55,854 bases of DNA from positions 1 to 55,854 of the forward strand of contig CALHCI010000030.1 in NCBI GenBank assembly GCA_937931165.1. The letters are read 5' to 3'. This document shows positions 53,763-55,854 of this stretch, one piece after another (the first letter of the stretch is position 1; each line of letters begins with the position of its first letter). The notes below the pieces were generated by a model that was given only the letters and a program-made list of their open reading frames with translations, searched no databases and was not told where the DNA came from. The position numbers and the translations under genes are program-made. Origin of the DNA: an uncultured Granulosicoccaceae bacterium. Lineage in GTDB: Bacteria; Pseudomonadota; Gammaproteobacteria; Granulosicoccales; Granulosicoccaceae.

Positions 53763-55595
53763 GTGACTGATTCCGCTCCAGTGCACGAAGAAAAGTCTGG
53801 CCCGGCGCTCAACCCCGGTGTGACGCAAACGCATAGTCTGGCGGCACTTCTCAGTCTGTTGCGCTACGCAAAAAAACATCGCCCGAGAATTCTGCTGGCG
53901 GCGCTTTGTTCGGTAATTAATAAAGTTTTTGATGTGATGCCGGAGATACTAATCGGCATTGCCATTGATGTTGTCGTTAATCAGCAGAGCAGTTTTGTCG
54001 CCTCTCTCGGATTTGCAACTGCCGTTTCTCAAATAATGGCGCTTGCAGTGCTTACATTTGTTGTATGGGCAGGGGAATCTCTGTTTGAGTATTTTCATTT
54101 AGTACTGTGGCGTAATCTCGCTCAACGGTTACAGGCCGAGCTCCGGCAGGATGCCTATGACAGCACTCAGCGTCAGGAGCTTGCCTATTTTGAACACCGT
54201 AGCTCTGGTGAACTGGTGTCTATTCTTAATGACGATGTCAATCAGCTTGAACGGTTTCTCGACGGCGGTGTCAATGACCTGATTCAGACGTTCGTTACCG
54301 TGCTACTGGTTGGAGGAGTTTTCTTCTATTTATCGCCGACCATTGCGCTGTTGGCGTTTACGCCTATTCCGGTGATTGTTTGGGGAGCGTTTTATTTTCT
54401 TCGCCGTGCCGCACCATTGTATGCCGATGTTCGTACGCAGGTTGGCCGCCTGGCCAATCGTTTATCCAACAACATTGGTGGCATGACAACAATCAAGTCC
54501 TATACAGCAGAGCAACGCGAATCAGCTGCTTTAAAAGCGCTGAGTGAACAGTATGTGAGCGCCAACCGCAAAGCTATTGCCGTTAGCTCGGCGTTTATTC
54601 CGGTTATTCGCATGGCCATACTTGCCGGTTTTCTATTTACTTTTGTGTACGGAGCGTTTCTGACACTCGAAGGTGAACTTAATGTGGGTGCTTACGGCGT
54701 ACTGGTTTTTCTGACTCAACGATTGTTATGGCCACTCACTGATCTGGCAAAAACCATTGATCTCTATGAGCGGGCGATGGCCAGTACAAGACGCATTCTC
54801 GGTTTAATAAACGACGATACCAGTGCACAGACTATTACAGAAAAGAATGTGTTAAGTACCACAGACGCCGGTGCGCTTGAGTTCAGACATATCAATTTTA
54901 CCTACCGTCAGTCTGGTGCCGGGCTAATTGATTTTGATCTGTCAGTGCCGGCAGGCAGCACGACAGCGCTTGTTGGCACGACAGGGTCCGGTAAGTCTAC
55001 GCTGGTGAAGCTGTTGCTGCGGTTTTATGAGCCTGACAGCGGTTGTATTTTGTTTAACAATATCGCTATTAATTCGATAACCCTGAATAGTCTCAGGCAA
55101 TCGATCGGGCTGGTAAGTCAGGATACCTTTCTGTTTGATGGCAGCATTGGTGAAAACATCGCTTATGGAAGAATAGGCGCCAGTGAACAGGAAATCATAC
55201 AGGCTGCTATTGCGGCTGAAGCATGGTCTTTTATTGAAAAACTGCCGCAACAACTAAACACCGAGGTGGGTGAGCGTGGTGTTCGGCTGTCTGGCGGCCA
55301 GCGGCAGCGAATCTCACTGGCGAGAGCCATACTCAAAGATCCTCCGGTGCTGATACTCGACGAGGCAACCAGTGCGGTGGACAATGAAACCGAAGCGGCT
55401 ATTCAACGATCACTGGAACGTATCTCCCGTAGTCGCACCGTGCTGGTCATCGCGCATCGGCTTTCTACTGTCGTTAATGCAGACAATATTGTGGTGCTTG
55501 AAGAAGGGCGAATAGTGGAGCAGGGAACACACACGGAGCTTCTGGAACTGAGTGGCCACTATGCCAGACAATGGAATGTTCAGACGGGGCAGTAA
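53763..55595 (+). CDS. ABC exporter, fused membrane and ATPase domains
   Basis: This 610-aa protein has an N-terminal membrane domain with about six helices (residues 40-330) and a C-terminal ATPase: Walker A GTTGSGKST (about 405), Q-loop SQDTFLF, signature LSGGQRQRIS, Walker B VLILDEATSAVD and H-loop IAHRLST. It works as a homodimer or heterodimer exporting lipids, peptides or drugs; its substrate is unknown. Start is GTG, 6 nt after the PuuA-like gene, so they share a transcript. Confidence 0.94.
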   Translation: MTDSAPVHEEKSGPALNPGVTQTHSLAALLSLLRYAKKHRPRILLAALCSVINKVFDVMPEILIGIAIDVVVNQQSSFVASLGFATAVSQIMALAVLTFVVWAGESLFEYFHLVLWRNLAQRLQAELRQDAYDSTQRQELAYFEHRSSGELVSILNDDVNQLERFLDGGVNDLIQTFVTVLLVGGVFFYLSPTIALLAFTPIPVIVWGAFYFLRRAAPLYADVRTQVGRLANRLSNNIGGMTTIKSYTAEQRESAALKALSEQYVSANRKAIAVSSAFIPVIRMAILAGFLFTFVYGAFLTLEGELNVGAYGVLVFLTQRLLWPLTDLAKTIDLYERAMASTRRILGLINDDTSAQTITEKNVLSTTDAGALEFRHINFTYRQSGAGLIDFDLSVPAGSTTALVGTTGSGKSTLVKLLLRFYEPDSGCILFNNIAINSITLNSLRQSIGLVSQDTFLFDGSIGENIAYGRIGASEQEIIQAAIAAEAWSFIEKLPQQLNTEVGERGVRLSGGQRQRISLARAILKDPPVLILDEATSAVDNETEAAIQRSLERISRSRTVLVIAHRLSTVVNADNIVVLEEGRIVEQGTHTELLELSGHYARQWNVQTGQ

Positions 55596-55674: not shown

Positions 55675-55854
55675 ATGAAATTTACGATTGAATATTGCGT
55701 GCAGTGAAATTATAAGCCGACAGCTCTCCGTGTGGGAGACCGACTGATGAGCATCGCAGGCGCTGAAGTAGAACTGATCGAAGGTGGTGGTGGTGTATTC
55801 GAAATTGAACGCAATGGTGAGTTGCTGTTTTCTAAAAAACAGTTAATGCGGTTT
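55675..55854 (+). CDS. SelW/Rdx-family selenoprotein with in-frame UGA (partial, cut by window end)
   Basis: Reading UGA (55705-55707) as selenocysteine gives M-KFTIEYCVQ-U-NYKPTALRVGDRL, then GAEVELIEGGGGVFEIERNG and ELLFSKKQLMRF, a near-complete Rdx/SelW domain: redox motif C-x-x-U at positions 8 and 11, NYKP-x-A, and GGGGVFE. The normal family sequence has Cys where UGA stands. Rdx proteins are thioredoxin-like redox proteins. Start: ATG 55675 with AAGG eight bases upstream; an in-frame ATG at 55615 begins a 20-codon longer form. 60 codons are visible of roughly 85-95. The rest lies beyond the window. Standard gene calling stops at the UGA or begins at ATG 55747 after it. Confidence 0.87.
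55721..55746 (+). promoter_or_regulatory. Candidate bacterial SECIS hairpin
   Basis: CAG (55721-55723) pairs with CTG (55744-55746), and TCTCC (55725-55729) pairs with GGAGA (55735-55739). The apical loop GTGTG (55730-55734) contains GU, the feature SelB recognises. The loop begins 22 nt after the UGA, inside the distance used by known bacterial SECIS elements. The lower stem is interrupted by an internal loop. Confidence 0.72.

Follow-up and report, generated by a model that had tools for sequence, protein, structure and literature searches.

Selenoprotein W-like (SelW-like) proteins of the Rdx family are known from bacteria as selenoproteins. The available text of PMC1088965 describes 48 SelW-like CXXU selenoprotein genes that carry bacterial SECIS elements, and seven Cys homologues, in the Sargasso Sea set; it bears out the premise of a first-pass annotation of the DNA studied here, that bacterial SelW-like Rdx selenoproteins with a SECIS element after the UGA are known. 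In the accessible part of PMC2398784, 427 SelW-like sequences in GOS stand beside 56 Cys homologues, and SelW-like proteins and SelD are given as the most widespread selenoproteins; the SelW-like family ranks with the most abundant ones there. According to the portion of PMC1794560 at hand, Cys homologues are absent or very rare in Sec-containing organisms for several selenoproteins, including the SelW-like ones. A table in the available part of PMC13188914 enters the family as PF10262, with a CxxU motif and one Sec, predicted with high confidence.

We analyzed a stretch of 55,854 nucleotides (the window), which is one whole contig (G000:C30) from the draft genome of an uncultured Granulosicoccaceae bacterium (4.86 Mb, 94.9% complete). 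Judging from sequence comparison, an in-frame UGA at the right edge of the window is, with high confidence, decoded as selenocysteine in a bacterial SelW-like (Rdx) selenoprotein gene whose 3' end is cut by the contig edge. Gene callers that treat UGA as a stop would miss the gene or shorten it. With it, a lineage of uncultured Gammaproteobacteria gains a well-supported selenoprotein; none of the matches listed by our literature search for selenoproteins in this lineage named the lineage.

The Rdx frame and its UGA codon

The features of the locus are collected in Table 1. The Rdx frame is open through the last base of the contig, and its product, with UGA read as Sec, is MKFTIEYCVQUNYKPTALRV...GGGGVFE...LLFSKKQLMRF. 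The first-pass annotation had described one in-frame UGA at the position of the second redox Cys of the family, followed by uninterrupted family-typical sequence (NYKP-x-A, GGGGVFE, LLFSKK), and both points were confirmed: the frame carries the CxxU motif of the family near its N-terminus, with a Cys at codon 8 and the UGA at codon 11, and all three sequence motifs are present. Because the complete genes of nine congeners comprise 70–73 codons, each ending in a stop, the window gene has probably lost 10–13 codons at the contig end. Exact matching of bases 55828–55851 (24 nt) found no other copy in the assembly from which the gene could be continued. A phage origin was rejected, as the protein had no match in 50,697 phage records at an E value of 1e-5. 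Plasmid records were compared with bases 1–25000 of the window, where seven records gave short matches of 60–80% identity.

Table 1. Positions of the selW-like gene, its elements and its upstream neighbor in the window
Feature	Position	Strand	Description
ABC transporter gene	53763..55595	+	Directly upstream of the selW-like gene; ABC_membrane 148.5 bits, ABC_tran 115 bits; conserved neighbor
selW-like (Rdx) selenoprotein gene (predicted)	55675..55854	+	ATG start at 55675; 60 codons present, 3' end lost at contig end; Pfam Rdx (PF10262) 49.9 bits (cut-off 22.6); NCBIfam CXXU_selWTH (TIGR02174) 40.4 bits (cut-off 34.2)
CxxU redox motif	55696..55707	+	TGC GTG CAG TGA (Cys8-Val-Gln-Sec11); TGC of Cys8 at 55696-55698; Cys8 and UGA invariant in 10/10 genus sequences
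UGA codon, putative Sec	55705..55707	+	Codon 11 (TGA); UGA in 14/14 family genes and 40/40 wider loci
Bacterial SECIS-like hairpin core	55724..55738	+	nt 17-31 after the UGA; CUCUC / loop CGUGU / GGGAG; basis: covariation, synonymous freeze, local folds

An Rdx match was found in 10 of the 14 genomes of the genus, and each of these genes has exactly one inner stop, a TGA. Across the family, 14 of 48 genomes have a match; all 14 carry a single TGA at the CxxU place, and none has a Cys there. A wider set was drawn from a scan of named genomes with two search patterns, one of which had C at the codon-11 position; 127 stretches matched a pattern, and the 40 related loci that passed a tblastn check make up the set. 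They come from Granulosicoccaceae, Chromatiales, Planctomycetota, KSB1, Gemmatimonadota, Verrucomicrobiales, Campylobacteraceae, Entotheonella and other taxa; L095, L096, L097, L099, L100, L102 and L104 are recorded as Granulosicoccaceae or Chromatiales. All 40 have TGA at the codon-11 position. The search for Cys homologues aligned at the UGA, which had been proposed as a check, thus returned none among the family genes and the wider loci, in agreement with the scarcity of SelW-like Cys homologues described in the available part of PMC1794560. More distant Cys forms may lie outside the 40 loci, since only 40 of the 127 pattern matches passed the tblastn check. The protein sequence is conserved beyond the UGA, where synonymous changes are numerous outside the hairpin described below. 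Because TGA, and never TGC or TGT, occupies the codon in every family gene and every wider locus, a sequencing error at this position appears very unlikely.

Two of the 40 loci, from two Verrucomicrobiales assemblies (L127:4001-4216 and L132:4001-4216), have a UGA in place of the first Cys as well, giving a UxxU motif, with the UGAs at a distance of three codons. Between the two genes, 20 codons differ, 15 through synonymous changes, and each genome has a tRNA-Sec match of 61.2 bits. The gene is possibly a bacterial two-Sec SelW, which we do not claim as unpublished. The available text of PMC7539508 describes UxxU SELENOW in amphioxus and Ostreococcus, and the bacterial table of PMC13188914, in the part available, gives only CxxU for the PF10262 family. 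A bacterial SelW-like gene with two UGAs would allow one to test how UGAs three codons apart are decoded.

The hairpin downstream of the UGA

The hairpin of the window recurs in relatives as five base pairs between nt 17–21 and nt 27–31 after the UGA, with nt 23–24 (GU) in the loop. In 44 distinct sequences, 201 of 220 cells were paired in this register, some sequences having broken pairs, compared with 90–104 when the register was slid by 1–3 bases. In a count over 40 distinct sequences, 90.5% of 200 cells were paired, and the slid versions reached 38.5–48.5%. Cells changed on both sides numbered 53 against a shuffled mean of 17.9 (40 distinct sequences), and the covariation score was 0.584 against 0.199 in shuffles; two of the five measures of this count were not above the shuffles (two-sided-change pairs, 212/500; further pair types, 405/500). 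The ten sequences of the genus alone contain no two-sided change in the hairpin, so that the covariation stems from the wider set. Position 23 is G in all 44 distinct sequences, and nt 23–24 are GU in 42 and GG in two; nt 17–31 thus contain an apical-loop G shortly after the UGA, as looked for in a bacterial SECIS element. This set of 44 covarying sequences, which spans several phyla, provides a usable alignment for finding more SelW-like selenoproteins.

Within the genus, codon use pointed to the same stretch. At codons +6 to +11 after the UGA, a stretch picked from the position of the hairpin, the same synonymous codon was used in 209 of 227 comparisons (0.92), compared with 835 of 1774 (0.47) elsewhere. 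When six-codon windows were slid along the gene, the two highest values fell at +5 and +6, and a smaller rise (0.83) lay just before the UGA.

The first-pass annotation had placed a short hairpin with a GU loop 22 nt after the UGA. This hairpin is present and covaries in relatives, and the description fits a register one base on from the core in Table 1, with the loop GUGUG; folding an isolated 23-nt fragment picks this register, with 5 bp. Codon 21 (55735–55737) is GGA (Gly) in the window and AGA (Arg) in the nine other sequences of the genus. The A-to-G change turns a U-A pair of the stem into U-G and permits the one-base slip to the loop GUGUG. Single-sequence folds were no better than shuffles (z −0.53 for 61 nt and −0.86 for 23 nt), and the support for the putative SECIS hairpin comes from comparative evidence instead.

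Selenocysteine machinery in the genome and family

It had been predicted that the genome should encode selA, selB, selD and tRNA-Sec. A tRNA-Sec lies at G000:C92:15091-15182; it scores 78.1 bits, over the cut-off, and was confirmed by ARAGORN with the anticodon tca. SelD is matched at 247.9 bits. Of SelB, the assembly has a C-terminal part of 298 aa, which starts directly at the edge of contig C227, contains two SelB winged-helix domains and is 38% identical to a congener SelB over 284 aligned positions. The prediction held to this extent but not for SelA, which had no match in this 94.9%-complete assembly, although both SelA and SelB exceed the cut-off in all 13 other genomes of the genus. 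In 12 of the 13, selA and selB share one contig, selA lying towards the N-terminal end of SelB. Because the SelB fragment is cut on the side that would face selA, an assembly gap at C227 is the likeliest reason for the missing selA.

tRNA-Sec was over the cut-off in all 14 genomes of the genus, and it was found in 26 of the 30 genomes of the wider loci that were searched (all but L095-L104), four having no match. When SelA and the UGA-containing Rdx gene were scored across the 48 family genomes, 12 had both, two had the Rdx gene only (one being the genome studied here), five had SelA only and 29 had neither (Fisher p 6e-6, uncorrected for kinship). Two draft genomes of the family stand out: G016 has a UGA Rdx gene and no SelA match; in G041, the sole SelA carrier among the 27 genomes of its genus (g5), SelA is not accompanied by an Rdx match.

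Several further observations were made on the machinery genes. A second match to the tRNA-Sec family, at G000:C93:3461-3548 (L003), scored 47.9 bits against a gathering score of 47 and is perhaps a long-arm tRNA of another kind. The SelD match (L050, G000:C132:5775-6698; L051-L062 in congeners) lies in an open frame of 723–764 aa in 13 of the 14 genomes. The SelD profile is less than half as long as this frame, so a fusion of SelD with a further domain is probable; the available text of PMC2398784 mentions Ndh-SelD fusions.

In 13 of 13 congeners, selA is flanked by a PrdB/GrdB-like gene (e.g. L020:3486-4718) with an in-frame UGA in the motif LLP[VA]-U-P-[NA]-C. In the 12 congeners with selA and selB on one contig, it is located between the two, and in G002 it lies next to selA at a contig edge. 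The copy in G005 matched PF07355 at 44.6 bits (cut-off 22) but reached the cut-off of no NCBIfam model, the best being TIGR04483 with 96.1 (cut-off 300). This gene is probably a second selenoprotein of the lineage, and it can explain why the Sec machinery is kept in the four genomes of the genus that lack an Rdx match; in the genome studied here, the corresponding stretch would fall beyond the contig break. Formate dehydrogenase-N was considered as a reason for the retained machinery and dropped: TIGR01553 exceeded its cut-off in none of the 14 genomes of the genus, and the 10 weaker matches listed were all free of inner stops. The PrdB-like UGA gene and the UxxU gene are more interesting than the Rdx gene of the window.

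Decoding of the UGA and comparison with known SelW-like proteins

The reading that the gene uses selenocysteine, already put forward in the first-pass annotation, is supported by the conservation of the UGA, the covarying hairpin and the Sec machinery. The UGA at codon 11 would be decoded by tRNA-Sec carried by SelB, which would bind the SECIS hairpin starting 17 nt after the UGA. The product would be a small thioredoxin-like protein with Cys8-x-x-Sec11 between strand 1 and helix 1, and from the family, the Cys8/Sec11 pair most likely works as a thiol/selenol oxidoreductase. The presence of SelA, the actual insertion of Sec, the redox activity and its substrate are what we infer beyond the observed genes and alignments. 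An AlphaFold model of the protein, cut at 60 residues and computed from 27 sequences (the window and 26 of the 40 loci), gave a strand-helix-strand-strand-strand order (E2-8 H14-24 E31-37 E42-46 E49-53) with a mean pLDDT of 86.9. In this model, strand 1 ends with Cys8, and Sec11 lies ahead of helix 1. Among solved structures, a sequence search matched Rdx proteins, namely 2fa8 (Atu0228; E 2.5e-9), 3dex (SAV_2001; E 4.9e-8), as well as Selenoprotein W 2npb (E 0.0013).

The ABC transporter gene adjoins the selW-like gene in nine of nine genus relatives, directly upstream and on the same strand in eight and convergent in one (L088, G004). The glutamine-synthetase-like gene that precedes the transporter gene in the window is present in eight of the nine, once as a contig-edge fragment. 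No close match to the ABC gene was found in the four other loci compared, outside the genus and L098. From this arrangement, the transporter appears to be a conserved neighbor, and we claim no functional link.

Three other readings of the UGA were weighed. A dead or misassembled Rdx gene, with the UGA as a true stop or as a base-calling error for TGC or TGT, might be suspected from the position of the gene at the contig edge of a draft assembly and from the absence of SelA in that assembly. However, the same UGA is shared by all 10 genus loci, all 14 family loci and all 40 wider loci, the protein after it is conserved amid many synonymous changes outside the hairpin, and the hairpin covaries in register, so we give this explanation only a very slight chance. 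The existence of a readable in-frame UGA would also be expected if UGA coded for another amino acid, such as Trp or Gly, throughout the genome. Such a reassignment has a negligible probability: UGA serves as an ordinary stop too, closing 9 of the 26 open stretches longer than 250 aa in the window (measured from stop to stop), the genome has tRNA-Sec, SelD and part of SelB, and the UGA stands at a redox Cys position with a hairpin after it.

A further reading takes the 10-residue peptide that ends at the UGA as the main product, with read-through being minor or regulated (e.g. selenium-dependent). What speaks for it is that release factor 2 competes with recoding, whose level was 30–40% in the work described in the available part of PMC4513850; the conservation at the protein level and the fixed hairpin show that the full protein matters, and a predominant short peptide is very improbable. 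We therefore retain decoding of the UGA as Sec in a full-length SelW-like protein. Since no Cys was found at the UGA in the 40 fetched loci, the short SelW-like clade could be an obligate bacterial selenoprotein clade, with one Verrucomicrobiales branch that uses two Sec (UxxU), both perhaps inserted through the single hairpin after the second UGA; for this broader proposal we see about an even chance.

Among NCBIfam models, the best-scoring was NF041051 (SelTWH_Campy, a SelT/SelW/SelH (seleno)protein equivalog of 70 positions), whose curated cut-off of 88 was missed both by the cut protein (72.8 bits) and by the full-length congener L015 (83.1 bits). The sequence relatives 2fa8 (Atu0228) and 3dex (SAV_2001) differ in having a Cys at the UGA position and longer chains, of 105 and 107 aa. 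Compared with the bacterial SelW-like proteins of the Sargasso Sea and GOS sets, as presented in the available text of PMC1088965 and PMC2398784, the gene shows no difference of substance: it belongs to the same family, has the CxxU motif and is followed after the UGA by a hairpin of bacterial SECIS type. Publication of bacterial SelW-like selenoproteins with a CxxU motif goes back to 2005 (PMC1088965), so the gene is a further member of a long-known family.
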